64,000 bases of DNA from Polytrichum commune (taxonomy: Eukaryota > Streptophyta > Polytrichopsida > Polytrichales > Polytrichaceae). Below the pieces are notes generated by a model. That model did no database searches, was not told the DNA's origin, and saw nothing but the letters and a program-made list of their open reading frames with translations. The DNA lies in assembly GCA_950295325.1 (NCBI GenBank), contig OX485807.1, positions 4,404,501 to 4,468,500 on the forward strand. The letters are read 5' to 3'. Shown here one piece after another: positions 5,853 to 63,418 of this stretch (its first letter is position 1; the number at the start of each line of letters is the position of its first letter). Position numbers and translations under genes: made by a program.

Positions 5853-5915
5853 TGTCCATGCTTTGTAAGCTGATGACATTTCTGCTTCACTACACTCTTA
5901 GTAGTGATTGTTGTA

Positions 5916-25928: not shown

Positions 25929-28900
25929 TTACCCATCTCCATCTTCCGCTTCATATCCATTCTCGGCGTCATTTTCCGCAGCTGCAATACGTGCCAAGTT
26001 GTCTTTGGCAAAATCTAGATGTTTTTGGGGGATGGTCATTGCTTCTGTGTTGGAACCTTTGCGCGGCTTCCAAGCACAAAGTATAGTATCTGTGTTTATC
26101 CAAACCGGTGTGTACGCTGAGTCCACTGTTCACTTAAAATTCTTTTTGGTGTCCCAACCTAAATAAGTGCGGAGCACGTTCTGGTCTTTAGTGCTTGGAC
26201 GACAATATTCCACCTCAATTTGACGAAAGTTGGGGCTAGTTCGAACAAAATTGGGTGAAGACAATGCTTTTACCAACCAAATTGGTTTGGGATGCTCCTC
26301 ATCCCCTGCTCGTACGAGGACCAAATACCCTTCATGGCAATCAACACCTACACGAAACGACGGTGCCGGTCGATTGCGGGCAGGGCCAACGTAATGCTCG
26401 TCCATTGCGAACTCTTCACGAACGTCTCCATTGCTGAAAAACATAGTATCGGACTCAACAACCGTCAAACGACTTTGTGGCCAAAATTCTTGTGTCAAAG
26501 TCGTATGGGTGTCGCCACCAAGTGTCATCAAGGCTGAGCGAATGCGATCCCAATACGCGATCAACGGTTCATGGGTATCTCTAACACGTCTTGTGATGTC
26601 CTCCTCGCACAACTCTTTCCAATATTCAATGAATCCGGATATGCCTTTGATGATTTCCGGCCCATTCCTCATGGGTTCGGGTATGCAAGGCTTTGGTTCC
26701 CCATCCGGGACCAAACATTTCCCATCATTGTCTTGACGCCATACGAGTATACCATCATCCGGGCCCCAATTAGGAGATGTGCACAAAAGCTTGAATTGCA
26801 TGGCCGGGAGACCATCGTCCCTCATATAAAATCGGAATTGTTGTGCTTTGGTATGCCCCACCAAACGGTCCCCTCCCTTCAACATGTATGGCTTGATGAA
26901 GGCCTTGAAATTTGGTACTTCCTCAATCAAGTGCGGAATTACTGGCATATGGTCCAAATCCATATACGATTTCATAAGAAGAGGTATGGTTGGAAAATCT
27001 TCTTCATGCAACTTCATGCTCCACCGTCCGAATGATGCATCAATGTCGTCGTGTGTATGTCCCACCATCAAGAAAGACACAAACACCTCCTTGAAGATTC
27101 CTTTCGCCACGAGCAATGACCAAAAACAAAATACGTATCGACATTTGTTGTCCTTCGGACAATTATCAAGTTGAACGTGGAGAGTTGGAGGCAATGGTTT
27201 TGCACAAATGGGCTCTCCGGGTGGTTTTGGCAATGACGACATACAAACCTCCTTCCCCGCAAGCACTGCCTCATAAAGGGATGTGGTTCCACAACCATCA
27301 AAAAGTGCACGGGAAGAATGTACCGGTGGCTTCTCAAGATCGCGCAACAGTTTTGCAAATGAACCCACCGTGTGGTTAGCATCCCCAGGGTAAAAATCCA
27401 AACCATAATGGGCATACTTTACGTCCCCATGGCCGTGGGCAATCATACCTGGAAAAAACAAACGATGCGTGACCAAAATAATCAAATAACCACTAAACGG
27501 ATGTATGGAGTTGGACATTTGCCAAACACACCCAAAAAAATTGGATAGACTTTAAACACGTAGTTGTGATTTCATACAAACCTGTGACAGCTACGGGCAA
27601 CTTGAAGAGACCATCCGTGGCCTTTATTTTGCGTGCATAACAAGGGCATGCGGTTTTGGCGTGGTCCATTTTATCATGGATGACTGTTAGAACCTCTGTG
27701 GGCCTCATTATAGATAGAGCACGATTCTTATAGTAATCTTGACGGTGTGCCTCTTGATTGTTGACATGTTCAATATATTTTTTCTGGTGTCTGGAATGAG
27801 ATTCAGTGCCTATGGGGTGGGCGTCTCGAAGACCTTTGTATTTTTCACACGTCGTACATCTAGCGAACTTGTCCCCGGGTCTTTTCAGAATGTATTCCGC
27901 AAACTGCTGGTTTTTAATCACACTCAACTTGGACAAAGAAATGAGCCCACATCCCGCTATGCGACCCACTTCATTGATGTCCGTTAAGATGTTCTTCCAT
28001 TTTGTGCCCGTGGGCAACACCATTTGAACAACCTTCTCCCCTGACGACAATGTCCTCGTCTTGTGGGGCATTGCATCGGCCAATGGTACTATGATGGTGG
28101 ATAGTATCGCGGACGCTTGCAGTGTAGCCTCCCTAGGTTTCTTTGTGCCCGAGTTGCCATGAAATCGAGAGCGGCGACCCAACGATGAATACTTTCGAAA
28201 CCTATAAAAGTCAGCCTTGGAGACGGCGTGGATGGTATACCACGCTGTACAACACACATCAACATTCTCAAGTGTCACCACCTTATGCCCATGGGTATCA
28301 AGGTGCAAATTTCTGTGGACCTCGAGTTTCTTAGCCGACCTCATACGAAAATCCGCAAGCCACATCTCTTGACGCAGAGATCTAATTTTCTCCCGCGGGA
28401 AAAATTGGCAACATTTCCTCGCGCAACAATCCTTGCCGGACACTAGACGGATAGATTCGTCCCCCAAAAGCCGATCCCGTCGACGCTCCTTATCTCCGCG
28501 AGGCACACGGTTTGAATCATATCTACGGAGGCCTTTGCGAGGACGTGTTGTGGCCAACAAAGCTAATTGTGTTTGCTTATGCCGCCGCTCATGATCCCAC
28601 AAACTCACTTCCTCATGTAGAACTTGACGAAGCGGCCATCGACGCAAAGAAAATCTCCATGTCACCGGGACCTCTACCGGAAGCAAAGAGTTCAAGATGC
28701 ACACGCCAACATCATCGAGACCTAGGGCGTTGGCATCGACACAATCACGGGGATTGGAATTTCTACATATGCCATCTGCCACCGGGACACCAACCTCGTT
28801 GAGTAGAACGACATCAAGGCCAACCCATTGCTCCCTCCCGAAACCGGCACACAACGGAATGTCATCGTGGTCATCTCCGGAATGCAGAGATTGTTCGTGG

Positions 28901-29058
28901 ACTTCCAAAGATTCATGGGAGGATGTATCCACAAACACCCCCCTCACGTTTGGCACACCATTACTATCTGCCGACGGGGAACACAGTTCACATTCAGCAT
29001 CGGATGACGATGCATACGTCGATAACTCCAATGAACTATCACCCACATGCAACGCCAT
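25929..29058 (-). CDS. DUF7869-type transposon-associated protein, two exons, with a late in-frame TGA
   Basis: Exon 1 is 29058-27582 and exon 2 begins at 27448. The 133-bp GT-AG intron splits a Gly codon (phase 1) and joins cleanly. The frame runs 931 aa to a TGA at 26132-26130 and continues in the same frame for another 66 codons to 25929. That tail (INTDTILCAWKPRKGS, TEAMTIPQKHL) looks like part of the protein. Recognisable motifs are HDKMDHAKTACP, LHVQLDNCPKDNK, LLVAKGIFKEVFVSFLMVG and VGHTHDDIDASFGRW, the signature of the DUF7869 domain found in many transposon-like eukaryotic genes. The N-terminal half has a Cys-rich basic cluster (DCCARKCCQFF). The start at MALHVGDSS is preferred: the open frame extends upstream only into relic sequence homologous to 38.4 kb. 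The biochemical activity is not established; a DDE-like nuclease is an inference. Confidence 0.75.
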
Positions 29059-29289
29059 ACCGCCTAGACCAACCACCAGGAAATGATCAACCCAACCACC
29101 ACCGCAATGCATACAAGAGAGGATAGAATATATGTGGAGATAAATGGCCCAAAATTGACAAACAAATTTTGGTACACCATTGGAGAACCTCACGCACAAA
29201 GACGAACACGCGTCCCAAAAAAACGTTTTAAGCATACGTCTATGAGCCTCACTAATGTAAACAATACATGGACAAAGAGGAGAACAATC

Positions 29290-29710
29290 GTTAGTCGTCC
29301 AGGAGGGCCCTGCTGTTCGGACCAGCGCCTGTCCCCATACAACCGACGACGAAATCACAAATCCGAGAACGCCACATGCATTTACGAACGTGCGTTCGTG
29401 ACCTCAGTAACTTCTCCATGTGCATCCGGCGGCCTTCGAGATCCCTCATCTGAGAGCACCCTTAGGAATATCGGTTTTGTAGGTCAAAATACCATGTTGA
29501 CTTAGGAACCTGCGCGATATACTATCACAAGAGAACACTTGTCCATACGCACAAAAGTAGTAAATCTGCGGATGATGCCTGAATCAACTCCAACAATATT
29601 TTGAACACTGAACACCTCCATATTGCAAATTTGATTATGTTGACTTTTGCATACCTACCCATTTACGAACGGACGTTCGTAAATGGGTGCGACCCCGTGT
29701 TCACATCCTT
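29290..29710 (+). pseudogene. Second, diverged copy of the 3' end of the palindrome-bearing gene
   Basis: Aligns in direct orientation with 38409-38850. Shared landmarks are GGAGGGnCCTGCTGyTCGG, CCAGCGCC, CGAyGACGA, CCCTTAGG, TTTTGTAGG, ACTATCAC, TTGCATACC, and the palindrome followed by GGGTGCGACCC. Homology begins immediately to the right of the palindrome at 38395-38417. The exon-intron donor (GAGGT in the 38-kb copy) reads GAAAT here and is lost. It lies head to head with the DUF7869 gene. Confidence 0.75.
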
Positions 29711-30305
29711 CACGGACGAGCGATGAGCATATTTTTCTTGCTATTCTGTGTTCGTAAATTACTGCCATACTGATGTGCATGAATGAAGATGTGTTGCTGG
29801 ATGCGTAGACAATAATGACATGTATTTACGAACGTACGTTCGTAAATTCCTGACCATCAGGTACCAATAGATACGGGTCAAATAAGTATGTATGATCCTC
29901 GAAGGCATATTTACGAACGCATCCTCGAAGGCATATTTACGAACGCACGTTCGTAAATGATTGTCATGGATTAAGTGCATGTGACTAACCATATGAGTAC
30001 CTCAATCCAGAACATGCTCTCATGTGGGATTTACGAACGCACGTTCGTAAATTACCGACCATCAGGTACCAATAGATAAGGGTCAAATATGTAAGCATGG
30101 TCCTCGAAGGCATATTCACGAACGCACGTTCATAAATGACTGACATGGATTACGTGCATGTGACTATCCATATGAGTAGCTCAATCCAAAACATGCTCTC
30201 ATGTGGAATTTACGAACGCACGTTCGTAAATCCTTACCATGTACAGGTCCGAATCGTTTGTCTAAACCTGAAGCTCCTCATCTTTACGAACGTGCGTTCG
30301 TAAAG
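29380..30305. repeat. Palindrome array 1: eight copies of the 24-bp palindrome
   Basis: Copies start at about 29380, 29661, 29824, 29935, 30029, 30114, 30208 and 30282, plus one half site near 29910. Each has an arm ATTTACGAACG, two free bases and the mirrored arm CGTTCGTAAAT. Central bases here are TG, GA, TA, CA, CA, CA, CA and TG. Mismatches are few and mostly at the outer arm positions. The array continues the second-copy relic and would correspond to the 3' intron of the gene at 34-38 kb. Confidence 0.92.
29824..30207. repeat. Tandem duplication of a two-palindrome unit
   Basis: Unit 1 (29824-30028, 205 bp) and unit 2 (30029-30207, 179 bp) each read: palindrome, ACCATCAGGTACCAATAGAT, then CCTCGAAGGCATAT, palindrome, GTGCATGTGACT, CATATGAGTA, CATGCTCTCATGTGG. 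Unit 1 has an extra 26-bp slip duplication that includes a palindrome half site. So the array grew partly by tandem duplication and not only by independent insertions. Confidence 0.85.
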
Positions 30306-31879
30306 TTCCGGTATTTACGGCGGTATATGCGGTAGGTACAGCCTGTACTGTACCTGGGTGGTGTAGGGTTGGCGCACACGAAATGGCTTGAGCGCGTTCG
30401 GTGAGGTCTGTAGAGCGCACACTTGCATGTGCCGCTGAAAAGAGCTTTGTTGTGGGGGGAAGAGCTTTAAGTACTTCACCCCGCTGGTTCAAAATCCCTT
30501 GGATGCTCTTTAAAAAGCGGATTCCCGCGGCCTTCTTTGACCTGACAATCTCCCATTCCATCCATGCGGAATTATATAAATAGCATTGTCATGTATGGAA
30601 CATGCCTTGCATGCACGCCAACATATTGAAAATATATAAATCGGTTGCACACCTTAGTTGTGACCAAGGTCTCATCGAAATATATGTATATACATACATA
30701 TATATATATATATATACACATAATGTCTAAATATGAAGATGGCTAACATTGAATATTTAATTATTTGCGACTAAGGTATGAAGTCCAAGTTAATTGACAA
30801 TTGATGCCTAATAAAGTTATGAATGTCGAAGTCATATATATATATATCTATACATATATACACATATACACACATACACATATACACACACACACACACA
30901 TAATGAGGTCAGAGTGGCTAAGAACATGTTGCGGACGCCCCTAAAATTATAGGTATCATATGTTTCACATCAAAAAATGACCGTAATATGGTTACCAAGT
31001 GCATGAATACAACTAAAAAATCGGGTTAATCCATAATGGCTTGCACTAGGGTAGATTGAGGACATTATGAACTAATTATACCTAATAATATATGTAAGTT
31101 AGGTCTTCTTTCAAATGGTATCTAGGTGTGAAAATAAGGAATTAAAATGGCATGAGTAGGAAGGATGAATCAATTTGTAATGCTGCATAGTATGATAGCG
31201 TAATGATCATTGAGACTTGAAACCATACTAGCTACCGTAACATTGAATCATAGTTACAATTATTATGTGTTTGACGTCCTATTGGAAATTGAATTTTCGT
31301 CCACTTGTTGTAAGGGTACGGATACACATTAGTTAAATGTTTATTAGATCATTGGTGATATTTATAGTTGAATGCATTGTTCAATTGTTAGTTTAAGTTG
31401 ACATATGATTAAATGAGTTGAGGTCCTATTGGAAATAGATTTTTAGGGTTTGGGGAAATGCATTATTAATTTGGAATGGTGCATACAATAGTATGTACTT
31501 ACAATTAATATATGTTTTGCATCCTATGAGAAGGATGTGCATCATCATAGCTTAAAGTGTTGATATAAATTGAAGTCTTAAGACATGCATGTTATTATAA
31601 TAAGATCGTGGATTGTGTGATGAAATTTCACTCAGAACTATTAAGGTGAAAGAGAGAATATTTGAAATTTCACTTATCACCTAAACCAAAGTTTTATATC
31701 AAATCTATTAATTTGGAATGTAAAAATGACAATTGGCATCATTATCAATTATTATAGTTGTTATGAACGGAATTAAGCATTCTCCATCCACCCAACATTG
31801 GTAGACCAATTTGACCTGCCCTCAGAAAACAACATGGCCACATATAAGAAAGGTTGGTAAGATAAAAAGATGCAGGGAT
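30306..31879. other. AT-rich stretch with microsatellites; one ambiguous open segment
   Basis: 30306-30583 is less AT-rich and open on both strands (about 60 codons on plus, 99 on minus). I see no domain and cannot choose a strand. TA/TG and CA microsatellites lie at 30680-30722 and 30834-30902. The rest to 31.88 kb is AT-rich without features. Confidence 0.45.
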
Positions 31880-31943
31880 GTAGGGTTTAGGGTTTGCGGT
31901 TAGGGTTTAGGGTTAGGGTTTGGGGGTAGGGGTTTAGGGTTTG
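31880..31943. repeat. Interstitial plant-type telomeric repeats
   Basis: Imperfect tandem TTTAGGG units on the plus strand (TAGGGTTTAGGGTTTGCGG, then TTAGGGTTTAGGGTTAGGG). This is the Arabidopsis-type telomere motif. With AT-rich DNA on both sides it is an interstitial block, not a chromosome end. Confidence 0.85.
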
Positions 31944-32529
31944 TGAAAGTTGTGTATGTGGTATTTGGGTTTAGGTTCTAGATTGTTACTAGGATACATT
32001 ACACACACAAACAATATTGACTCCTCAAAAACCCTTGTAATTGCACTAACTTCATTCATCGCAAGCTCGTAGTTGATGCTAGCAAAATAGTTGACCACTC
32101 CAGAAATGCATTAGTTCAAGCTAACACCTAATATTGGAACTTGAATTGACATCCTATCGTATAGCAACTCTGCGCAATCTCATATTATTATGAATTCCTT
32201 TTTGCATGTAATATTTATGTGAGGAACCATCGAATTAATTGAAAGATATCTAGCTCTTACATAAACTATATTTTAAAACACCATATACATATCTTTGGGG
32301 GTGGATTCTACATTGACAACCTAGGAAATGACATGCATTGTTTATTACGAATTAACTGAGCATATTTTTCTAAAATATGTTTACAAGGAATCCAAATGTA
32401 GAGGTACTAAGGAAAGAAAACGAGTAAAATTCATGTATTTTAACTAAGCTTTTCAAGTTAATGCCCTAAACGCGTCCATTACATATAAATATGTCAAAAC
32501 ATGAGAATAACATGAAGGGTTCCAATATA

Positions 32530-33130
32530 CAACCATCTCCCATCTCCCATCGCATCCCATCCCATCCCATCCCTTCCCTTCCCATCACCTCCCATACCAT
32601 CCCATCCCATCTCCCTCCTAGCCCTAGCCAGTGGAGTTGTGCCACGTGGCAGGTGCTGGGAAACCCTAGCGGCGCACCTACCTCCCCGCGCCCCTTCCTC
32701 TTCTCCTCATTTGTCATTTCGAGGAGAGGAGGAGCGGAGCGCTTAGAGAGCGAAGCTCTTGCTTTTTTTAGTCTTGAAGTTTTAAATTAGTTTTGTTGCA
32801 AGTTTTGAGAGATTTCAGATTGAGAGCTTGTGTGAAAGCTTTTGAGTTTGTAAAAGCTTTCATTGTGAAAGCTTGTGAGTTTGTGAAAGCTTTCAGTGTG
32901 AGAGTTTGTGAGTTTCAAAAGCTTGAGAGCTTGAGTAGGAAAGCTTCAAAGTTTCGGATTGAGAGCTTGAGGGTGATCTTTAGAAGCTTGAGAGTTTAAG
33001 GAAGCTTGAGAGTTGAAGCTTGAGAGTTTAGGGAAGCTTCAGAAGTGAAGCTTGAGAGTTTAGGGAAGCTTGAGAGTTAAGGGTTTGCTTAAGAGTTCAG
33101 AAGCTTGAGAGCTACAAGCTTGTGAGTTTT
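32530..33130 (+). promoter_or_regulatory. Candidate promoter and 5' leader of the palindrome-bearing gene
   Basis: The segment changes abruptly in composition. It begins with CCCAT/CCCTT simple repeats (about 32535-32620) and a palindromic G-box GCCACGTGGC (32641-32650). From about 32805 to 33120 come irregular repeats of AAGCTTGAGAG and GAAAGCTTGTGAG. Such purine/pyrimidine-biased repeats are common in plant 5' leaders. A splice acceptor-like TTTTGCAG at 33474-33481 and then the palindrome-rich stretch precede the first coding exon. Transcription start and leader introns are inferred, not proven. Confidence 0.4.
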
Positions 33131-33595
33131 GTGTACATGGGAGTATACTAGGGTTTGTATATAAGCTGTGAAGGCTTGAGGTCTGCATTAGAGAGTTATT
33201 TGAGTGTGCATTTGAAAGGCAATTGAGTGTGCAGTTGTGAGGATTTCTGGGATTTTCAGAAAGAGAAGAAGCAGGGTTTGAAATGTGCAGCATTTCAATG
33301 TAATTTGTTATCCTTTCCAACTCCTCTCACATTCTGAAAATGTTGCTTCTTGAATTCAATTTCTTTTGTTACATGCAATGTGAATTATCACTTTCTTCTT
33401 CATGTTTCATTCTGCATCTCATTCTGCATCTCAATTGCTTTATGATTCAAAATTTGTATCATTCTGACCAAAATTTTGCAGGCACGGTTGCAAGCAGAGT
33501 AGCTAATAAGTGAGTTATATACATATATGTATATATACGTATTTGTATATATACGAATACATATATGTACGGACAGGGGATCCCAAAACCATCAC

Positions 33596-34166
33596 ATTTA
33601 CGAACGCTCGTTCGTAAATGGACATACACTGCATACCGAACGTGCGTTCGTAAATACACACTCCACGTTCTTTGAAATGATCTATATTTACGAACGCACG
33701 TTCGTAAATATACTCAAAATATCACTCAGATGGAACCTTAACTTTAATATGAACCTCTACGAATATCTAAAGAACAAATATAATTTTGCGAACACCAATA
33801 AAACAAATCACATGTACTTACGAAAGATAAATCAACCAAATATCCGAAAAGATAGTCCAAATGGACATACTTACGAACGCACGTTCGTAAATAAATCCAA
33901 ATCTATAAAACCTATATCTTTTACGAACGATCGTTCGTAAAAATAACCAAATATATTACAAATACATTCATGACGAGTAGTCTCTTTGATCTTCATATCT
34001 TTTACGAACGCTCGTTCGTCAACTCAATACTAAAAATTTATATGATCTTGCAACCCCTCATTTACGAACGAACGTTCGTAAATATAATTACATCAATTGC
34101 AAAGACGCATTAACACTGCGTAGTCTGTGGGATATGCATGTCATTTACGAACGTTCGTTCGTAAAG
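33596..34166. repeat. Palindrome array 2: eight copies upstream of the first coding exon
   Basis: Copies start at about 33596, 33633 (left arm shortened), 33686, 33870, 33919, 34000, 34060 and 34143. Central bases are CT, TG, CA, CA, AT, CT, AA and TT. Spacers between them are AT-rich and unrelated, unlike the tandem array at 29.8-30.2 kb. The last copy ends 28 bp before the ATG at 34194, and a TTCTGTTGCAG acceptor lies between, so the array probably lies in a leader intron. Confidence 0.92.
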
Positions 34167-35489
34167 TCACTAATTCTTTATATTCTGTTGCAGATGGCAA
34201 GATCAAGCAGAAGCGCCATTGAGATGTTCGCGGTGAAGGTCGATGGCCTTCCAGAGTCGGTGTTAGACGATAACGGCAACGACAACTATGTCCCCAAGGA
34301 AGACTTCATGGGGGAGTGGACGGCACTGCCAGAGAAGATCGGGGACGGCCTCTTCTGCATGCGCTTCACCTACGAGCTGGAGACAAGACCGGACCAGCCC
34401 GAACAGTGGGTTCAAATGAAGACGTGGGAGATAGAGTCCATAGAGGCCCAGGGGGAGTATGTAATTCTGGACATGAAGAACAAGAAGGATCATATCAACC
34501 TCTTGTTGCATTTCCAGAAAAATACCTTCTCCTACCAATACGCCACCAATAACGTAGCGAAAGATGCCAAGCACTTCGACCTGGACGGCCTCTTCTCCAA
34601 ATATGCGTTGAGCCCATACTGGACGGCAAGGAAATTGACCGCCCTTGCATTGAACATCTCCAAATACAACAGTGTGGTCACTGAGGCAAACAAGAAGAAG
34701 AAGAGCCCCAGGAAACCATCCACATCAGGGGCAGGAGGATCTAGAAGTGCACCCAGGCCTGTGCCTTCCGCTAGCAAGGCGACGGAGGGCCCCAGTAGAC
34801 ACTCCACGCCATCGAAGAGGACAAGGGAGGAGATGGAGAAATCGGGAGTAACAGAGACCGCGGAGGTGACCTCGCCTGTCGTAATGCCCACCCCCTTGAA
34901 AAAGGGCGAGAACCCTGACGCTGTGAAGGCCACGAGGATCCTTCGAGACTTCAACAACTACTCGAAGGATTGCTGGCCCATGGGACGCCACTTCACATTC
35001 AACGTGGACTGCTTCAAGTGCGAGATGTCCCCCAACAAATGGGTGGTTTAGTCTCGCGAGAGCGGTGGTGTGAAGTGGCAGATAAATAATCTAATGAACA
35101 ACGTCAAATGGGACAGGCAGACCGTTTGCGTCATGCCGAAGGGGCTGACATCCCGTCCGACGGAGAAGGACTGGCCACGGATCCAGAATGGAGAGTTCTG
35201 GATCATAGACGGCCAACACAGCTTGGAGGCGTCCCAGATAATCCTCAAGGACGACAACTTCCAGCATGAGCTGAAGGAGGACTTGCGCTACTGGAAGGCG
35301 TTCTTGGTGTGGTCGGACGATTGGGACAAGCTGCGGAAGATATCCACCTTCCTCAACTCCGGCAACAAGATCAAGGCCTTCGAGGCGTCATGGGCAGCCA
35401 ACATAGTGGCTGCAAGGGACGTCTGGGTCGCCCACGGGTGCCCCCCTAAAGAAAGGGAGAACGCGAAGACGCCATCTCCACAATGGAAG

Positions 35490-35586
35490 GTGAGTTTACG
35501 AACGAACGTTCGCAAATATCTTTGACATTCAAACTTACGAACGTGCGTTCGTATTTTGTGCGTTACTGATGCCTTTCTTGCTGCAG
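35490..35586 (+). other. Intron 1 (97 bp) carrying two palindromes
   Basis: Donor GTGAGT after CAATGGAAG, acceptor TTGCTGCAG. Two palindromes (35494-35517, centre AA; 35533-35555, centre TG) make up about half of this very short intron. The intron joins QWK to AFCDAM in phase 0. Confidence 0.8.
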
Positions 35587-36912
35587 GCATTCTGCGACGC
35601 GATGGTGGACAAGTTCTCCTCCATCGACATGAAGTCTACAACAACCAAGTCTGTCCTGGAGCTCAAGGGTGAGCTCCGCCTCATCTGTTGCAACAGGGAC
35701 ACTTGGGAGTTGTGGACACAATTTTTTGATGCGCACAGTTCGGGCGATCTGGTCAACCCCGACACCGAGGAGAAGTACAGCGCGGAGAAGACCGGGGAGG
35801 CCCCTCCACTACTGAGGGAGTTCTTCATGTCCCTTCAAGGGTTAACAGAGTCCGAGTTGCAGAGGTGCGCGGTGCATCTTGTTGGGAACACAATGGGAAG
35901 AACCATCCCATACCCGAAGATATTTTTGAAGAGGCCAAGACACAAGCCCGGCACGTATTCCATTAAGGAATGGTGCGAACACCGCAAGCTGAAGACTGCT
36001 GCAATGAGGGAGTTGAGCGCCCTAATACCAGAGTACGCACTCATCCTAGCCGACGGGGACATTAATTGGGCCAGCTGGAAGATGTTCAAGGTCGATTACA
36101 ACATCTCCGGACCCTCAATGCGTTGTCTTGTCAAGGAGCACGCCTCCATTTTGAACTAGAAGGGGAACAAGAGGACAAAGAAAACTGAGACGGATCCCCA
36201 GGAGGTGGAGCAATACAGAAGCTTTTTGGCGCGGAAGAGGTTGGCCACATTCGAAGGAGTGGCCAGATTTTGTTTGGTGACAACCGGAGTGGAGAGGGTC
36301 ACATTTTCCAAGTGGGACCGGACCATGAGCAGGGCCGAGGTGAGGGAGGATCGACGGGGGTGCCCATTTGCCCTGATCGATTTCAGGGGGATCCCCGGTG
36401 CGTCGAGGCAGGGGGGGAAGGACATACCTTTCTACGACCCCTTCATGGCCAAGTTCAAGGAGCACAAGTCTCCGGACATGAGGGAGCCTCACGTTTGGCT
36501 GTGGATAGTGGAGCAGGAAAAGCTCTCTGCTGTAGTCGACCTGTACGAGAAGACGATCAAATTCGAGTACATCATCTTCCACAGCACTTACGTGCCCGCC
36601 AAGACGGAAGGGATCGTGGCCATTAACGAGGCCAGGGGAAACAAACAGGTGGGGGCGGTCAGCCTCGTCTTCTTGACGTACAACGCGCTTCGGAATGGGC
36701 GAGCCCCTGTCAGGGCGAATACTACGTTCAAGAAGATCTACAGCATCCCCCATCCCCCTCCTAAGGATCTGCTGCAGGAGACCTTGTACACTGTCTTCCC
36801 GGCGATGGAACTCAGGTTGGAGTTCTACGTCTCCGTTTTGCAGAGCGTGGCAATAAGCGGAGAGACCGTGTACAACGTTTGTGGAGGCAACAAGTTCATG
36901 TACGCTGCGATG

Positions 36913-37053
36913 GTAAGCTCTCCAACTAATATTTACGAACGCTCGTTCGTAAAGTTCACCTCAACTTGTCTTGGGTTTTGATGACATTGTTTCTCGTCGT
37001 TGATGTTTACGAACGCACGTTCGTATATTCTAACGTATTTACTTGAATCTCAG
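36913..37053 (+). other. Intron 2 (141 bp) carrying two palindromes
   Basis: Donor GTAAGC, acceptor TTGAATCTCAG, phase 0. Palindromes at 36931-36954 (centre CT) and 37005-37028 (centre CA). As in intron 1, there are exactly two copies, near the two ends of the intron. Confidence 0.8.
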
Positions 37054-38017
37054 ATGCTGGGGCTGGCCGTCAACAGCTTCATTGAAGCCATCGACGAGGA
37101 GGACTTCCACGTGCACAGGGCGAAGGCCTCCACGATGGACCTGGAGGACATGTCCCTCCCGAGGACGGACATCAACATGCCCGTCGACGAAGGCATGCCC
37201 GCCATGGAGACGGACGACGACGAGCCCGCGCCCTCCTACAACGTCGAGGCGATCCTCCGATCCTTGGACGTCACTCCTCTCCGCATTTTGGCGCCGTCGG
37301 GAAATCCATCCGACGTGCAAGGGACTCCGGGTGGATACACGGGGTCGTCGGCGGGGACAACCCAAGATGTCCTCCCCGCGAGAACGTCTGGAGCGGAGGC
37401 ATTCGGCACTCCCGGGGGATGCTTGACATCCGTGTCGCCCAGGCCGATCGTGGTTCCCAAGATGGAGAACCTCGACCTTCTGGACCAACGGTCCCGACCG
37501 ACGTTAGACCACTACCGCAACACGAGGCGGAGGATGAAGAAGACCCCCTACGTGGAGCTGCCTCCGGGGGCAATCATAGAGGTCTCCGATGAGGACGAGG
37601 GCGACATGGAGATCATGGTCGAGCTGGGGGTAGACTTTGACAAAAACAAGAGGGTCAAAGAGGAGGCGTTGTCCGTCGCCAAGCTCGAGCAAAAGATGAA
37701 GGAGGACATGGCGAAGGCGGCAGAGGAGAATGCCAAGAAAATGTTCGCAATTCAGGAGGAGCTGAGGCAGTCCAACGAGAAGACGGACGCCATCCTCGCC
37801 ATGCTCCAGCGTATGCAGAGCTTCTCGGCGCCCCCCCAGCCGGCCTACCCCTTCCCTGGAGGATACCCCTCCCAATCCCCTCCACCAGGCATGTTCACCG
37901 GAGGGCCTTCCCGCCAGCAGGCGCCCCACCCTACGCCTGTTGGCACTCCTCCGCCCCCAGAGGTTCCCTCGACCACCTCCCACGATGCTGTGGCGGCGGC
38001 CATCTAGGAGGACGAGG

Positions 38018-38041
38018 ATTTACGAACGCGCGTTCGTGAAT
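38018..38041. repeat. Palindrome inside exon 3, in frame
   Basis: Copy with centre CG and one arm mismatch, 11 nt after the TAG at 38005. Read in the gene frame it adds about eight codons (DLRTRVRE) without a stop. Confidence 0.8.
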
Positions 38042-38394
38042 CTTCAGGTCCTCCAATCCTCACCCCTCCCCCTTCAAGGGTAGGACTGCCCTCATACACC
38101 GATGCGTCGTCTTTCACCGTCATCCCCAGGGTAGTAGACAGACATGGCGATGACTCTGCGCGACACACTGACATGGTCATTGTGGAGGACACGCAGGGGA
38201 GCCCCAATGACGCACCATGGGTGCATGGGATGGACGTGGAAGAAACCCATGCGGCGTGGATGGAGGATGTCAGGATGGACGCGCTCGACCTGGGCGCCGA
38301 GGAAGAAGACGCGCTGCGCATCCAGGCGACACAGGCGTCTCAAGCGGAGCGTGAGGCAGAGGCCATGGAGACAGAGGCGGCTGCAGCTGTGGAG

Positions 38395-38417
38395 GTTACG
38401 AACGCACGTTCGTTAAT
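38395..38417. repeat. Palindrome inside exon 3, in frame, at a homology breakpoint
   Basis: Copy with centre CA (GTTACGAACG... form), read as EVTNARSLI in the gene frame. The second copy of this gene at 29.29 kb aligns with the sequence from just after this palindrome onward but not before it. Confidence 0.8.
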
Positions 38418-38502
38418 CGTTGAGGAGGGACCTGCTGCTCGGTCCAGCGCCGCTGCCCCTCCCCCCCGATGACGAGGTAACTCTCCTCTGAGAATACCAT
38501 TT

Positions 38503-38962
38503 TTTTACGAACGCGCGTTCGTAACCTCTCTAACATCGCGATGTTTTTCTCTTCATCGACATCCAGTGGCCTTGCGAGAGCCCTCTTCAGCGGTCCCCCT
38601 TAGGGCCGAACAGTTTTGTAGGACACGGCATCATTTTGCCTTAGGAAAATATGATAGACTATCACGTGAGAAATGTAAATATTCAACGGATTAATATATG
38701 AGCCCATGTTATCTGCATCGCGTTGCTTCAAATTCTCTGCCCTCGACCCCTTCTCGTATATTGTATATGTTGATGAGATTATGTTCATTCTTGCATACCC
38801 ACCTCATTCGTGAACGCTCGTTCGTGAAAGGGTGCGACCCACTGTCCACCTCATTTGCGAACGACCGCTCGTAAATGTACGTGTAGCCGCGCTCACGAAC
38901 GAGCGCTCGTAAATGATGCGCACTGCCCCCGCAGCCTTCATTCACGAACGCTCGTTCGCAAG
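38503..38962. repeat. Palindrome array 3: five copies in the 3' intron
   Basis: Copies start at about 38503, 38805, 38852, 38890 and 38939, with centres CG, CT, AC, AG and CT. Several show arm substitutions (for example CGCTCG in place of CGTTCG, and GTGAAC or GCGAAC in place of ACGAAC), so this array is more diverged than array 2. It lies between the donor GTAACT (38477) and the FCP1-like exon at 39.1 kb. Confidence 0.9.
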
Positions 38963-39094
38963 TGTGCGCTTGAGCACATTTTCCTTGCACTCTCCTCACT
39001 TCCTCGTCTTTCCCCATAATGCACCGTCTTCATTTTCTACGCAACATTTCATTATTGGATCATAGAATTAAACTAGTCGAGTTGTTCATCACAG

Positions 39095-39267
39095 GACCCC
39101 CCGGAGATAGGTTGCAACCCCTCGACCAGTGGACCTCCCACCCGGCACAAACCTTTCATCGTTTTTGACCTCAACGGGGTGTTGTGTCACACCCAACACA
39201 TCCCAAGGGTCCCCACACGTCCCTTTCGTCACCCCGACGAAAGGGACTACGACGGCGAGCTCGACAC
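39095..39267 (+). pseudogene. FCP1-like HAD phosphatase, N-terminal part of a gene split by a retrotransposon
   Basis: Exon segment after an acceptor (TTCATCACAG at 39094, or GGAGATAG at 39110). It encodes KPFIVFDLNGVLCHTQ, the motif I region of plant FCP1-homology/HAD proteins; the usual second Asp is Asn here. It stops at the 5-bp target site GACAC, where the Gypsy element is inserted, and resumes at 46678 in the same frame once one GACAC is discounted. Using the 39110 acceptor, the phase matches the donor at 38476, so this may be the fourth exon of the ParB-like gene. Confidence 0.7.
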
Positions 39268-40210
39268 TGTCGCGACCCTTGCTAGTTTTTCTCCACTTAG
39301 CTCAATCGCTTTCCAACTCTAGCAAGTGTCCCGAGCGCTAACCTGCACATCCCACGCACATGCATGGTTAGCTCCCAAAACCGCGGACCTTCAATCCCAT
39401 ATTTGGTCACCAAACCCTCCTACACATGCATTCGGGACTCTTTCCCCTTAGTAGGTAACCCATCGCTAAGGTGGACTTCCATCCATGGAAGTCCACTCCC
39501 TACTTGGTCATAGTGTTGCTAGGACAACACTACAACCACCCGGAGCACATTGCCAAGTATGCTCCGGGGGGGGGGTCGGTCGGCAAAGCCGCCTCACCCA
39601 TATAAGCCTCTAGGACTTTTGGCGGGGCCCCTCCCCCACCGTCAACATCCCTTTTGTCTCTCTACCAAGAGTTGGGGCCAAGTAGACATTTTCCCTTAGC
39701 CGCTGGGTCTAGAAGCCTCCCTGCAGCTTCAGACCTTCATAACTTCCACGTGCGGTCTCTGAATCTAACAACCAACCACTCTATCGTCATCTACATTTCA
39801 CGTAGATCCCTATGGACACCTCACTTGCCCTATTCGGGCAAGTATTGAGGAAGTTATGCCTGTTTAAACCTTTGCAGTCCCGGGAGCCACTCCCAGGCCC
39901 CTGCTGTTCCAGGGCGCTGTCCCGGGACAGCATCCCACTCAAAGTGCCATATCTCCTAGCTCACACCTCAGATTGAGGTGTTCTTTAGCATTCTAGAATC
40001 GGGACGCCATAAGCTACTCATAGCTTATGGCTTTACCCTCATGACTCCTAGTCTTTGTGGGTGGGAGGCGTTCTAAACGCCCGGGGCCCTCACCCACCTT
40101 AGGATCACTTGGTCCCTCTCACCAATGGCGTCACAAGTCCCGGGTGTCACTCCGGGGTCCCCCTTGTGCCCATGGTGTTGCGGGCACTCCTCATGGAGAG
40201 GTGCGCGACA
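39268..40210 (-). repeat. 3' LTR of the Gypsy element
   Basis: 943 bp with TG...CA ends. Its G-run (CCGGGGGGGG at about 39563) is also present in the other LTR. Open frames inside it are incidental. Confidence 0.95.
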
Positions 40211-40222
40211 CTCACCCCCACC
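40211..40222 (-). promoter_or_regulatory. Polypurine tract
   Basis: On the element's sense strand, TGGTGGGGGTGAG lies directly before the 3' LTR, as expected for the primer of plus-strand DNA synthesis. Confidence 0.75.
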
Positions 40223-41038
40223 AAATGGAGTCGATGCCCTCATCGACTATACTTATAGTCGGGCACACCAATTCTCAAGTTGCCATCCTCTCTTGGTGTG
40301 GCATTGTGTTTTCTTTAGGGCGCTACCCCCACAATGCATCTTCAAATTTGGCAAAGTCTCAAAGGTGTCGATCCTAGGTGGTCCGTTTAGGAAAACCCCG
40401 GACATCTTGTCCAAGGACCTAAACTACACTAGACTCACCTACTTTGAGACTTACTTGGGTGACCCTTCCTTTGGGGCCACCCAAGTTAGGCTCCACTAGC
40501 CTAACTCTATCATTTTGACACAACTAGGTTGGACCTCAACGCTTCTACTAAGTTGCCTCGGTTGCCACTCCGAGATGGCTTTCCTTTGTTAAGCCACGTC
40601 TCGATCGCACGGGGGTGATGCCAAGTCCCGCCCGACTTGGCTCCCACTTTGCTCTTTCGAGACATGGGTTCATGACGCCCATGCGCCAACTCGCATTGGC
40701 TCGTGGGTTGCACTTTTATAAGCACGCGCCATCACCTTGCCCCCGCCCGGACAAGACCATGGCTAAGAGGTTTTTGGTTTTATCCAAGACCCCTCTAAGC
40801 CATGGTCCCCATTACTCGGCCTACCCAACCTAGTTTAGCATATATATTCCTCCCTCTTCCACTAACCAAGCACAAGTACAAGACTAGGACCTCATCTTAT
40901 ACTTTTCTCTTTGCACCACTAAAGTTGAACTTTATTGCCTTAAGCGAAAATGAACAAGTACATAATGTGGAGGACATTGCCTCCAAGTTAAGGGTGCTAC
41001 TAACATCTCTCCCCCACTAAAGGAGATTGATGTCCTCA

Positions 41039-44000
41039 TCAATGCCTACGTTTCCTTTTGTTGGACCCTCTAGCCCTAGTTTCTTCAAAGCGCTTCACTA
41101 TCTCCTTGGCATTCACCATGTCCCTTGCCGCTACCCAAGTGGCTTCTTTCTCATGAAACCCCCGCCACTTCACCAAATACTCCTTTCCTTTTCGCTTGTG
41201 GTTCCTACACTTGAGGATGCCTTCTACCTCGTACTCCAAATGATCTCCTACAAGGTCGGGAGGTGGCCTAATCACTTGCTTACGATTAGGCCATAAGGTG
41301 TCTTCCTTGAACGGCTTTAATAGTGAGACATGGAATGTCGGATGCACTTTGATCTCGGGCGGCAACTCCAACTTATAAACATCTTTGAAAACTCGTTCAA
41401 CAATCGGAAACGGACCCGCAAATTTTGACATGAACTTTGGAGTGAGGCCTTCGGGCATTGTGAAGTTTTTTACATTCAACAACACCTTTTGGCCCACCTC
41501 ATACTCCACTTCGCGTCTTCCGGCATTGACTTGTTTTTCATAGCGTTTTTGGGCTTTCTCCAACAACAACTTGGTCTTCTCCAAAACTTGTTCACGCTTT
41601 TTGGCTAAGTCCTCACCATCTTGGTTGAACTCTAGTGTTGAATGTGCCCCCTCGAGAGCTAGGTCGGCGGGTTGGAGCGGATCCACTCCATAAGCCACCT
41701 TGAATGGCGATTGCTTGGTCGCCGAGTGCGTGGCCGCATTATAACTAAACTCCGCTAAACCCACATAGTCCGCCCAATCTCGTTGGTCCGCACTCACAAA
41801 GTTCCTCAAGTATTGGTTCAAGACTCCATTCACACGCTCGGTTTGGCCATCCGTTTGGGGATGGAAGGCCGTGCTAAAGGTTAGTTTTGTTCCAACCTTC
41901 CTAAAGAAATGCCTCCAAAATGCGCTTGTGAACTTCGGATCTCGATCGGATACAATCACTCTCGGCAACCCGTGATGCCTCCACCATGCATTGAGAAAGA
42001 GCTTTGCGGTCTCCAAAGCGGTTGCCGTTCCCACGGTTGGCACCATATGCGCCAACTTACTAAACCGGTCCACCATCACCAAGATGGCATCGTAGCCTCG
42101 TGACTCCGGCAAACTCGTGATGAAGTCCATGGACACACTATGCCATGGCCCCGGCGGGATAGGCAACGGTTGCAATAAGCCGGCTTGCTTTTGATAAGAG
42201 GCTCGGTTTAATTGGCATTTGACACAAGTCTTCACAAAGTGGGCGATTTCTTCTTTCATGCATGGCCAATAATACCTCCTTGACACCGCCGCTATGGTGG
42301 CTTTTTCTCCTCTATGGCCGGCGATGGGACTATCATGTTCCTCCTCCAAAACCAATAGCCTCAACTTGCCTTGTGGCACATACACCCGACTTTGCTTATA
42401 CTTGAGCAATCCGTCCACCAACTTGATCTCCTTAAGCGCCTTGCCTTTGCGAAGCTCGCCTAGAAACACTTGTGCTTCGGGATCGTTGACGTACCCCTCC
42501 CTTAACTTACGATGCAAGTCACATTCACCTTTGTACATTAGCCACAAGCTTTGACTTGTGCCCATTTCTTGGAACTCTTCACGTCTACTTAACGCGTCCG
42601 GCACCACATTATCACGGCCCGGTTTGTGGATCAACTCCACGTTCATAAGCGCCAAGGTATCGTGCCACCGCAATTGCTTGGCGCTCACTTGCGTTTGTGT
42701 CTCGAAATACTTCAACGACACGTTGTCCGTGTACACCTTGGTCTTGTGCAACCCCAAATAATGTTGCCACGTCTTCAAGCAATGTACTACGGCGAAGAGC
42801 TCCTTTTCATGAGTTGGCCATCGTCTTTGACAACCATCGAGTTTCTTGCTCTCATAAGCAATGGGCCGTCCATCTTGCATCAACACTCCGCCAATTGCAA
42901 AATCGCTCGCATCCGTATGCACCTCAAAAGGCTTGTCAAACTCCGGGAACTTTAGTACGGGCGGCGAAGACAATTTGCTCTTGAGCTCCCAAAAAGCTTG
43001 GTGACAAGGTTCGTCCCATTCTTGGGATACCCCTTTCTTCAACAAGTCGGACAAAGGCCTAGCAACCTTAGAAAAATCTCGAATGAAGCGGCGGTAGTAA
43101 TTGGCTAGGCCAAGGAACGACCTAAGCCCTTTTTGAGTCGATGGCCGCTTCCATTCTTGAATCGCCTTTACCTTTTTCATGTCCGGCTTAATTCCATCCT
43201 TGGTCACCACATGGCCTAAGAACTCAATTTCATTTTGAGCAAAATCGCTCTTCTCCCCGTTAGCATACAACTTGTTGTCCCTTAGTTTTCGAAGCACCAC
43301 CTCAAGGTGCCGTGCATGCTCCTCCGCCGTCTTGGAATACACCAAGATGTCGTCGATATAGATTATTACGAAATCGTCGGTTTCCTCTCGAAAGATGGTA
43401 TTCATAAGGGTTGTGAATGTCGAGGGCGCATTACACAACCCGAAAGGCATCACCAAAAACTCGTAAGACCCATACCTTGTGCGGCACGCCGTCTTTTCAA
43501 CATCTTCATTCGCGATTCGAATTTGATAATACCCGGATTTTAAGTCAATACGACTAAAATACTTAGCTCCCGCCAATCGGTCGAAAAGATCATCAATCCG
43601 AGGTAGCGGGTAGTTGTTTTTGATAGTCACCTTATTCAAGGCCCTATAATCGATGCACATGCGTAGCTTGCCATCTTTTTTATCCACAAAGAGCACCGGG
43701 GCCCCATATGGTGATTTACTCGGCCTAATGTAACCTCTTGATAGCAAGTCATTGAGTTGTTTCTTCAATTCTAGCAACTCTTTTTGGTTCAATCGATAAG
43801 GTGCCTTGGACGGTGGCTCGGACCCCGGGATCACCTCGATCTTGTGATCGACTTTTCTCGTTGGCGGTAACTCTTGGGGCAACTCGTCGGTGAGTACATC
43901 CTTGTACCTCCCTAATACATCGCGAATGTGCTTTGGAGGAGGCCCATCGGTTTTAGCCTCCTCGTGAGTTCTTTGGTGTTGCTCCATTCGGACCACCACA

Positions 44001-45679
44001 ACCATTTGTACTTTGGACATTCGGTCTGTCGAGACCAAATTCAACTTGCCTCCTCCCGCCATAGGAGTCCTCGTCAACTTTAAAGTCATTTCCTTGCCAT
44101 TACGACAAATTACAAGCCGCACCGGCTTGCGCCTCACATCCACCGTGTGAGTCTCGAAGAAGGTGTCCCCCAAAATGAGGTCCACCTCATCCATTTCACA
44201 AAGTGTGAAATTCTCCTTAAACTCCAACGTCCCACACTTTAAGTTCACGTTCAACGCTACCTCCTTCGTCTCATGCGGCTCGCCCTTTGCGAACCGCACG
44301 TTAATGGGCTTGCCCGCTCTACCCGTTGGCAAGCCCAATTCCTTCGCAAGTTTCGGGCTCATGAAGGAGTGCGTTGCCCCTGTATCAACCAAGCATGAGA
44401 CATTCCGACCATTGATTTCGGCTTCAAGGAACAAAAGACTTGGCCTTGGCTTAAGGCTACTAGCCTTGGCCACAAAGCCACCTTCTAGCATTTGGTCGGC
44501 GGTACAACCACGATTTGTCTTGACACTCACCTTGTTGTCGGGGCACGCCGCTTGAAAATGACCAAGTTTGCCACATTTGTGGCACCGCTTGTCTTTCATG
44601 TCGCCTCCTTTAATTCCTACATTGGGTGGTTTTCCTCCTTGGTAGCCACCCTTGGTGGAATTTGTCCCGTCGGGTTGTCCTTTGAAATGGTTGGATGGCC
44701 CAAATTTCTTGCGCTCTTTGCCTCGAGACATATTTCGACTCGAGCCGCTTTGTTGTGCGGGGCCGCTTGACTTTCTTTCGGGGCCGTCGGCTTCAATTCT
44801 CTCCGCGATCTTAATGATCCCCGTCACGTCCTCGGGAAGCTTTGGAAACTTGAACAAGGCGTCTACCACCCACTTTTGTAAGCCACCTAAGAAAATGCAT
44901 CTCTTGGCAAATTCATCCATCTTAGGTGTAGCATTCATTTGGGCGTTAAAATCGCGCACATAGGCCTTAAGGGACCCCGTGTGCCTCATTTGCACCAAGT
45001 TCATTCCCTCCCGCAATTCTTGGTACTCCGGCGTGAACCTATCAACAAGCAATTCCTTGAAGCCGACCCAAGTCAAGTTTGCCACCAACTCGGGCTCTTG
45101 TTCTTTTTTGCTCGTCCACCATTGGAGCGCATGGTCTTTCAAAAAGGTCACCGCTATGGAGACCTTGTCGTCTTCATCGGGCCTTTGGACATCGTAGTAG
45201 TTGTCCATTTCCAATAAAAATTCTTTGACCTTTCTTGCCTTACCAAGCCCCGAAAAGGTACTTGGCATATTTACCTTGGCCAACTTCTTTGTTGAAGAAG
45301 AAGGCCTAGCCCCTTGCATCATAAGGAGCTCGATCATTTTGTCTTGGCGAGCTCTCTCGTCCTTGACACGCTTGAGCTCTTGATTCACGGAGTCCATGAA
45401 CTCAAGCATTTTGAGTTGGAATTTTAATCCAACATCACCACCTTCCAAGCTTTCGGGCGCATTTGGAAGTCTAGCCCCCGAATTTTCTTCGAGGTTTTCG
45501 GGACCCCTTTCTAGGGACTCCTCCACTTCCTCACCGGTTGCACCATCATCCCCACCATTGTTAATAGACTCAATGGCGGGGTCAACATCCTCTTCAACAT
45601 GATCTTTGTTCCGTTTTGAGCGTCGCAACTTTTTAGAAGTCCCCGCCTCACCATCGTTACCCGCACGTTTGGTAGCCAT
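41039..45679 (-). CDS. Gypsy gag-pol polyprotein with chromodomain
   Basis: One uninterrupted 1,546-aa frame. Approximate order: Gag (residues 90-300), CCHC knuckle [14 protein letters not shown] (about 364), aspartic protease [10 protein letters not shown] (about 428), reverse transcriptase with [13 protein letters not shown] (about 773), RNase H with [11 protein letters not shown] (about 918), integrase H2C2 zinc motif (about 1110-1145) and core with [10 protein letters not shown] and [12 protein letters not shown] (about 1245-1290), and a C-terminal chromodomain with [15 protein letters not shown] (about 1505). Gag and Pol are fused in one frame without a visible frameshift site. Catalytic residues look intact. 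A C-terminal chromodomain places it among chromoviruses, whose integrases target heterochromatin marks. Start chosen at [10 protein letters not shown], 37 bp inside the primer site. Confidence 0.97.
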
Positions 45680-45715
45680 CTCTCCTTCAAAGTGCTAGCT
45701 CAAAGACGAAACCCT

Positions 45716-45727
45716 GCTCTGATACCA
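45716..45727 (-). promoter_or_regulatory. Primer binding site, initiator tRNA-Met
   Basis: Sense strand TGGTATCAGAGC, two bases after the 5' LTR end. This 12-mer is complementary to the 3' end of plant initiator methionine tRNA. Confidence 0.93.
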
Positions 45728-45729
45728 CG

Positions 45730-46672: not shown

Positions 46673-46677
46673 GACAC

Positions 46678-48382
46678 CCTCATTAACCGCAAGGCTGTCC
46701 GCGCCCGTCCCGGCTTGCGTGACTTCCTTCGCGAGGTGGTCGAGTTCGCTCACGTCATTGTGTGGAGCTCCATGGTCATGGAGAACACGGAGCCCATCGT
46801 CCACTTCTTTTTCCGCGATCTCCCGAGCCCGTGCCTCGTCCTCGGCCAAGAGGACTGCGACGAGCTGCTCGACGAGAAAGGTCAACCGGTGCCCAAGTTT
46901 GGCAGTCGGGGCGGAGGACAACAGTTCCTCAAGGTCCTCCGCTCGAGACTCTGGCGAGGCGTCCCCCGTCTGCAAGGGACGCCGCACGGGTGGTGGCCGA
47001 CTCCAGAGAACACCGTCCTCATCGACGACAGCCCCACCAAGAGCGTCTTGAACCCCCCGGGAAACGTCATCTTCCCGGACACTTGGACCGGCGATAGGCA
47101 AGACACATTTTTGGTCGATAGGCTAGCCCCCTACCTTAGAAGGCTCGTGCTCCACGCCGGTAGCATCCCATTTTTTGTTAGGTCCAACCCCTTCGGCAAT
47201 GCGGCACTAAGCCCCCGCGATAATGTATTCTAGAGCATCATGAGGCTCGCCAAACTCAATAAATTGATTTGAAATGCCTCCATGTCTTTGCTTGTATCAT
47301 GTGGTTCACATTTACTAATGCTTGCTTCATTTTTGGATGTCTTTTGTTGTTGTGATTGTTGTTGTTGTTGTTCTTGCCCATAGTCTGCCCCCATATGCGA
47401 CGCCCCTGTGGTCGACGACCCTTCCCGTCCCCTCTCGCCCCCTGCCTCCCCTTCCCGCGACGTCACGGACTTCCAAATGCCATCCCTCTACCAGTTCTCG
47501 GCGGTGGACGCGGCCTCGGCCGTGGATTACTCCCGCGACATCGGCATCGACGACGGCGTTGTCAACAGCCCGCCCCCCGCACTTGTTGCCCGCGCCTACG
47601 CCCCGTCGCCCTCCCCCCTCTCCAAGGAGAAACGGACGCTCGTTCGTTTGGGGCACCTCTCGCCCTCTAAGGACGACGCCGTCGCTCGTCGCGGGCCGAG
47701 CCGGCGTCTCCGCATGGAAGGCCCCCGTTGCCACACCTCCCCCGCCGACTCCGTTCCTCCCCCCGCAACGTCCTCCGCCATCGTGAGCCCTCCACGCCTC
47801 GACTCCCCCCCCGCCACTCACTAATACAATAGTTCCATCGGCTCCGGATGCTCCCGTCGACGCCCCCCTCGTTCCCACCGTTCCCCGCATGAACGTCCCC
47901 AAAGCCAAGGTGCCCTCCTCAACCTTAAACCCCTTTCCCGCTTTTGCTTCCCTTGTCTTCCGTTTGCGTGCCGTTCTCTTTACGAGTGCCCATCCCAAAC
48001 CGCCCTCATTATTTTCCCCACTCCATTCCTATTCTTATCTTCCTATGACGTTGTTTCGCAGGTGGCTACCCGCTCGCTTGGTGCCCGGCCCTCCTCCACG
48101 TCCTCCTTGGATAGGCACGCCCTCAAGGCCGCATCTTCCGAGTCCGATCGTTGTCTGGCCCTCCGGAGAAGCGCAAGACGTTCCCTTTCGCAAACACCCT
48201 CGCATTCTACTTATAATACCACCTCTTACAATTCGGGAGCGCGTCCTGAAACATGCAAGAACGACACATATTCCTGTCCAGGCAACACACAAGGATACAG
48301 TCGTGGGCCTGAGATTTTTAGAGCCATGGAGGCTGCCAAAAAAAAGGACTTAGCCGCCAAAAAAAATAGTGGGTCGGACTAG
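46678..48382 (+). pseudogene. FCP1-like HAD phosphatase, C-terminal part and disordered tail
   Basis: Continues the segment ending at 39267. The first exon (to 47224) carries FLREVVEFAHVIVWSSM, NTVLIDDSPTKSVLNPPGN, FPDTW and VRSNPFGNAAL, in the order of plant FCP1-homology proteins. The donor GTATTC at 47225 allows splicing (phase 0) to exon 47384-47782 (Ser/Pro-rich, starting SAPICDAPVVDD) and then, via GTGAGC, to exon 48062-48382. That ends in a Lys/Ala-rich tail (FRAMEAAKKKDLAAKK) and TAG. If unspliced, the first exon stops at TAG 47231. FCP1-type enzymes remove phosphates from proteins such as the RNA polymerase II tail; activity here is doubtful given DLNG in motif I and the split gene. 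Exon GC content matches the ParB-like gene. Confidence 0.65.
47635..47658. repeat. Degenerate palindrome relic in the FCP1-like tail exon
   Basis: GGACGCTCGTTCGTTT matches the centre and right arm of the 24-bp palindrome; the left arm is weak (GAAACGGACG). It could be an old copy, which would link this exon to the palindrome-bearing gene, or chance. Confidence 0.35.
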
Positions 48383-49243: not shown

Positions 49244-49251
49244 TGCCAACT

Positions 49252-63109: not shown

Positions 63110-63418
63110 CTGCCTTCCCAGAAGTTGAGCAATTTATGCCATTTTTATGATATCAAAATATACCATACCTTTGTATTTTGTTGCATATTGTATATGCAAC
63201 TAGACTAATCAAATCCAACCAGGTTGAAACTTTTGTGATGACTTGGATGCTCTCACTTTGATAATTGGGTTTGGCGAATTGCCTAAGGGCCACTTCACAC
63301 TCTTGCCAAGAGCCATGACCATGAAATTGTGAGAGCCCAAAGGAGAGTGTCCAAAGGCCGTCCCAACACACCTCCAAAATCATGTAGTGTGGTCATGGGT
63401 CCTCAAGTGTAGTGTGAA

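Follow-up and report, generated by a model that had tools for sequence, protein, structure and literature searches.

In a 64-kb window of the Polytrichum commune assembly (contig OX485807.1, positions 4,404,501 to 4,468,500; "the window" hereafter denotes this whole stretch), a multi-copy gene whose modelled protein has a ParB/sulfiredoxin fold was found to carry numerous copies of the palindrome ATTTACGAACGnnCGTTCGTAAAT. Sequence comparison makes it somewhat probable (about 0.57) that these palindromes are binding sites of the protein encoded by the very gene carrying them. The computed basis comprises the sites themselves, their position within predicted introns, the fact that they recur in homologues as read by back-translation, a two-sided difference between two subfamilies of the gene (S1, which includes the window's copy, and S2), and the ParB-like fold.

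Scanning of the window yielded 27 copies of the palindrome with zero to five mismatches each, all of them located between positions 29380 and 38963. With a 22-bp form and up to three mismatches, 26 matches were obtained, all within 29.38-38.96 kb, and the same search in 100 dinucleotide shuffles of the window returned none. The copy number and the confinement reported in the initial annotation are thereby borne out, as is a doubtful relic, which shows eight mismatches to the 24-bp form and one if the comparison is restricted to the 14 specified bases of the core (at 47632). The half site mentioned there is also present, and was found to be one of two. Per-position counts over the 27 sites revealed that CGAACG and CGTTCG are near-invariant and that TTA/TAA is retained in 22-27 of the palindromes, the central dinucleotide being free (11 of the 16 possible forms are present) and the flanks carrying little information. 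Given this near-invariant core, free centre and uninformative flanks, the conserved unit is a dyad-symmetric motif of about 20-24 bp and nothing beyond it. Its CpGs are arranged at a 4-bp spacing (CGxyCGnnCGy'x'CG).

The gene model represents a reading of the window sequence guided by homologues (Table 1). According to it, the window holds a near-complete copy of the gene at about 33.5-39.3 kb, resuming at 46.67 kb past a retrotransposon. Homologues agree with the placing of the start codon and of the borders 35490, 35586 and 36913; the border 33510, the exon start 37054 and everything from 38476 on, the connection with the phosphatase exon included, are model only. Introns make up 28% of the gene span, yet hold 17 of the 19 palindromes within it (p = 2.9e-8, computed with the borders 33511 and 38478-39095, which are one base off and leave the site placement unaffected). 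Three in-frame TAG stops (35049, 36157 and 38005) indicate that this copy is decayed. A reassigned TAG codon was considered and is not favoured, homologues without such stops existing for the first two coding exons.

Altogether, 82 homologous proteins were obtained, 30 from a search with exon 1 and 52 more (plus one already known) from a search with exon 3. In many of them the prediction does not stop at the exon border but continues into the intron, and the resulting tails show the palindrome in all three frames, as FTNxRS-stop, YERxFV and LRTxVRK. Among 76 back-translated tails, several of which were shorter than the palindrome and counted as misses, the palindrome was matched perfectly by 36 and with no more than one mismatch by 52, as opposed to a maximum of 0 and 1, respectively, in 20 shuffles of the same tails. 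Only S1 letters were used in the exon control, where 4 of 826 exon segments fit with at most one mismatch, while the tails were scored with any letters. Proteins with a non-fitting exon border were skipped by the tail script, for example P0035, the end of which also reads LRTRVRN. Furthermore, the palindrome peptide was detected upstream of the start in P0002 and P0011, and as a one-residue variant in P0007. The sequence between the palindromes appeared unrelated by eye in most tails, P0050, P0074 and P0076 being close kin. The recurrence in the same two introns of homologues implies that the palindromes are an old, kept feature of the gene family.

For the origin of the symmetry, the initial annotation had named either a site bound by a dimeric protein or a tiny mobile or homing sequence. 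The latter, a palindrome inserting by itself, is now regarded as very improbable. Uniform copies dispersed in unrelated spacers would be in line with it. Taking the 20-bp core as the unit, 11 of the 27 sites are bounded left and right by an identical pair of bases; however, this pair forms the palindrome's own ends, from which a 2-bp duplication is indistinguishable. With all unit lengths tried, no exact target-site duplication of 3 bp or 5-8 bp was detected at the 27 sites, and one of 4 bp occurred at 2 of 27 at most. Moreover, the same introns are occupied in homologues, and the letters track the gene subfamily. Exact palindrome matches numbered only 2 in a 257-Gb prokaryote collection, and single palindromes were present in 4 and 9 stretches of viral contigs (in a looser form for the 4), these collections being not of plants. 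The viral-contig palindromes were taken as chance; two of the 13 stretches were scanned further and contained one site each. Relatives of the gene were sought in prokaryote genomes and viral contigs, where 57 and 3 pattern matches, respectively, were obtained and none was confirmed.

Compared with the S1 copy of the window, members of the S2 clade are 42-45% identical in exon 1 and 46-57% in exon 3, and the split is supported 100/100 in the exon-3 tree (35 rows). In place of the S1 peptides, S2 tails read FTDxRP-stop, YGRxSV or LRPRGRK. The arm ACGAACG of S1 thus corresponds to mostly ACGGACG in S2, with one site of ACGGCCG; LRPRGRK represents a form with C at the next place. At the informative sites, as back-translated, S1 has A in the left arm in 33 of 33 cases and in the right arm in 32 of 33, the total being 33 after one misparse (VTCERT in P0007) was dropped from 34 rows and five of the sites stemming from fragments outside the trees that were assigned by identity (P0074 one, P0075 and P0076 two each). 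In S2, G is found in the left arm at 11 of 12 sites and in the right arm at 12 of 12, one site belonging to a fragment assigned in the same way (P0082). Only pattern-fitting peptides enter this count; more diverged ones such as FTNAHS in P0034 are left out, and LRTxVRK sites are uninformative for the letter concerned. The change was seen in two different introns. The S2 peptides are also compatible with the same CpG frame, the search pattern itself assuming CpGs where codons are degenerate. Palindrome letters that change symmetrically between branches of the gene family suggest that the protein recognises its own DNA.

Several points weigh against this interpretation. The covariation could be a single evolutionary event on a long branch, and the exon-1 tree places S2 (100/100) among poorly resolved S1 rows. 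In addition, P0054 has asymmetric sites, and the homologue palindromes were read from peptides by back-translation and not from DNA. P0031, representing a third, distant lineage with 36-37% identity, has an intron tail without a recognisable palindrome of the S1 or S2 type, and may use another motif.

A two-sided change between S1 and S2 would likewise result from base pairing, if the palindromes fold into hairpins in the intron or untranslated-region transcript and act in splicing, RNA processing or small-RNA production. Under the gene model, the 19 gene sites are transcribed, and the splice donor of many S1 homologues is immediately followed by the first palindrome, which would suit such a role. 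We nevertheless consider RNA hairpins quite unlikely, because pairing alone tolerates varied paired sequences, whereas CGAACG/CGTTCG is near-constant over the 27 sites. Moreover, 10 of 35 one-sided departures retain a G-U pair, only three positions changed symmetrically on both sides, and two sites fall in a predicted coding exon. Sites of a host transcription or chromatin factor exploited by the element are improbable too, if a little less so; their position near the start codon and in introns is common among host regulatory sites, but a host factor leaves the letter change with the element's protein subfamily unexplained, unless the two subfamilies reside in different hosts. Recognition by the element's own protein is likely in view of the sequence evidence. 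The letters constant in this copy, the free centre, the dyad symmetry, the non-coding place and the change along with the gene argue for an element-encoded dimer that reads the sequence. The dimer-bound site proposed in the initial annotation is supported as far as computation reaches, namely by the ParB/sulfiredoxin-like fold, the homologue introns and the subfamily-linked letters.

By its predicted fold, the protein belongs to the ParB/sulfiredoxin superfamily, so that the earlier label of a ParB-like gene is backed by computation; Pfam does not name this ParB-fold protein of a plant-like host above its cut-offs. The exon 1 product additionally has a weak PH-like N-terminal domain, and the exon 3 product a weakly supported methyltransferase-like domain, both according to fold matches. 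Exon-1 and exon-3 profiles gave only weak, unrelated matches to PDB sequences (best E 0.12 and 0.036), and the weak family matches GmrSD_N (0.031) and DUF6551 (in 6 of 29 members, best 0.012) were set aside. The phosphatase exon is assigned to the NIF/FCP1-like phosphatases by a PF03031 match above the gathering score (49.3 bits against a cut-off of 21.8, open reading frame (ORF) 46571-47233); it did not reach the NCBIfam TIGR02251 cut-off (31.6 against 139) and had no PDB match at E 0.01. As modelled, it probably belongs to the palindrome gene.

A ParB-like and a methyltransferase-like fold within one gene, together with the CpG spacing of the window sites, would also suit parS-like partition or self-methylation, in which the protein loads on the palindromes or modifies them, marking self. 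In bacterial ParB-parS partition systems, a ParB-fold protein is accompanied by palindromic sites near its own gene, as is the case here; the present system differs in having another palindrome, 27 sites, a location in introns of a plant-like gene and a nucleotide motif that is not recognisable. At the presumed place of this motif, where we take a GERR type to be expected, DGQHS is found. Phage and bacterial fusions of a ParB domain with an N6/N4 DNA methyltransferase have the same order of the two domains. Here, in contrast, the catalytic motif is altered, PH-like and NIF phosphatase domains are added, and tblastn searches of phages with P0032 (exon 3) and of plasmids with P0002 (exon 1) gave no match. 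The (D/N)PP(W/Y/F) catalytic motif of beta-class (N6/N4, MT-A70) methyltransferases was not seen at its presumed place in the 35 aligned homologues; where DPPW would be expected, 34 read DFR and one DFC, which makes catalysis doubtful. We therefore give partition or self-methylation little credence.

Table 1. Coordinates of the palindromes, the gene model and the second gene copy in the window.
Feature	Position	Strand	Basis or remark
Second, diverged copy of the 3' part of the gene: Pro/Ser-rich exon end and start of next predicted intron	29288..29722	+	Alignment to 38410-38867
Left palindrome cluster: 8 sites and two half sites	29380..30305	.	Arose in part by local tandem duplication (offsets of 179 and 205 bp)
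Palindrome starts, left cluster (8)	29380, 29661, 29824, 29935, 30029, 30114, 30208, 30282		
Two palindrome half sites	about 29750 and 29909		
Palindrome starts, intron before start codon (8)	33596, 33632, 33686, 33869, 33919, 34000, 34060, 34143		
Palindrome starts, intron 35490-35586 (2)	35494, 35533		
Palindrome starts, intron 36913-37053 (2)	36931, 37005		
Palindrome starts, predicted exon 37054-38476 (2)	38018, 38394		
Palindrome starts, predicted intron 38477-39094 (5)	38503, 38806, 38853, 38891, 38940		
Doubtful palindrome relic	47628..47651	.	In later Pro/Ser-rich open stretch
Predicted intron ending right before start codon, 8 palindromes	33510..34193	+	GTGAGT...TTGCAG from sequence; palindrome peptides upstream of start in homologues
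Coding exon (exon 1): weak PH-like N-terminal domain and ParB/sulfiredoxin-fold domain with DGQHS; one in-frame stop	34194..35489	+	30 homologues, fold matches
Intron, 2 palindromes, the first beginning inside the donor site	35490..35586	+	GT..AG; position agrees with homologues
Coding exon (exon 3): helical region and weakly supported methyltransferase-like fold; one in-frame stop	35587..36912	+	52 further homologues, fold matches
Intron, 2 palindromes	36913..37053	+	GT..AG; homologue tails at 5' side
Predicted long Pro/Ser-rich exon, 2 palindromes, one in-frame stop	37054..38476	+	Sequence reading; model needs a reading-frame break near the exon end
Predicted intron, 5 palindromes	38477..39094	+	GTAACT...CACAG from sequence; model only
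Predicted start of NIF/FCP1-like phosphatase exon, split by retrotransposon	39095..39267	+	Sequence reading; continues at 46673
Remainder of NIF-type phosphatase exon	46673..47233	+	PF03031 match in ORF 46571-47233

The palindromes had previously been assigned to a single genetic unit, which has to be corrected to two pieces, the near-complete gene and a diverged fragment at 29.3-30.3 kb. The first 435 bp of this left piece align with the gene's 3' region in the same direction (66% identity over 466 columns), whereby the palindromes at 29380 and 29661 align with those at 38503 and 38806, respectively. The aligned palindrome cores agree in 27 of 32 columns, compared to 282 of 386 elsewhere, which is a small difference. 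Past 29722, no longer homology between the left piece and the gene was found. Tandem duplication, earlier thought to explain only a few copies, accounts for part of the left cluster, as seen from the blocks 29824-29921 and 30029-30126 (91%) and 29922-30052 and 30101-30231 (93%). Since extra sites arose partly in this way, palindrome number turns over.

Beside the left cluster, a DUF7869 gene was identified on the minus strand (26130-29358), with a PF25273 match (8.3e-40) in ORF 26130-27518 and no family match for the adjoining ORF 27493-29358. It is possibly transposase-like on its own, or a partner of the palindrome unit. As a bearer of the palindromes it was rejected, no site with up to five mismatches being located inside its ORFs (26.1-29.36 kb); only the fragment adjoining its 5' end carries them. 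The best PDB sequence match for DUF7869 was weak and unrelated (0.23), and the literature searched contained no mention of it. The retrotransposon within the phosphatase exon is a recent Ty3/gypsy chromodomain element (39268-46672) with long terminal repeats 99.7% identical, flanked by repeated GACAC according to the sequence reading. Pieces 74-86% similar to its long terminal repeat, partly in tandem, occur at 55424-57214. Upstream of the gene, an AT-rich stretch (32760-33130) contains an array of GAAGCTTGAGAG-like repeats, perhaps a leader or another element. A dispersed repeat pair of about 87% identity was recorded at 5901-7572 and 61412-63418, and CpG depletion as well as TTTAGGG-like stretches were seen in the window. 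Together with the style of the introns and the chromodomain gypsy element, these two features suggest a plant-like genome.

A search of the literature returned nothing relevant by title and start of abstract, which does not establish absence from print. The closest comparison is the VANC/VANDAL system of Arabidopsis. Its motifs are described as lying in introns and other non-coding parts, turning over via tandem repeats and differing between families (PMC5735166; PMC10398659), the VANDAL motif being the 9-base YAGTATTAY, arrayed in one orientation. The likeness extends to a short motif that is present many times in introns and further non-coding regions of the element itself (17 of 19 intronic here), to local tandem repeats holding part of the motifs, to a motif that differs between related families (here A in S1 and G in S2, in both arms, by back-translation) and to a candidate binder encoded by the element. 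The differences concern the motif, which is here a CpG-rich palindrome with a free centre, and the protein, which has ParB-like, methyltransferase-like and probably phosphatase domains. No DUF1985 was among the Pfam matches of the scanned window ORFs and of 29 exon-1 and 35 exon-3 homologues (the long exon 37054-38476 being covered as ORF 37000-38007), and for this reason the protein is not a VANC family member by the Pfam test. Furthermore, neither a transposase nor terminal repeats were tied to the palindrome element, an 11-mer search of 30250-34200 against 47000-49700 giving no convincing terminal repeat; anti-silencing is proposed here by analogy.

We infer that a dimer of this very protein, each of its subunits occupying one half site TTACGAACG, would read the palindromes in the element's introns and other non-coding stretches and would influence the chromatin or the expression of the element itself. 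Anti-silencing appears the likeliest use by analogy with VANC, in that the bound protein would preserve the element's activity or its unmethylated state in a host where silencing works through DNA methylation; self-regulation would be the other outcome. Only tentatively, and with more doubt than confidence, can this be extended to a selfish element of a plant-like nuclear genome that turned a ParB and methyltransferase-like protein into a means of self-recognition, in which CpG-spaced intron palindromes recruit a dimer keeping chromatin open, the protein and the full set of its sites co-evolve jointly towards new letters, and related families become orthogonal. If true, this would be a second, independently built element-encoded factor that recognises non-coding DNA of its own element, the protein being a different one and the code palindromic. 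With the S1/S2 pairs, such a code of protein-DNA recognition can be tested directly, and orthogonal pairs of this kind would be of use for controlling plant chromatin.

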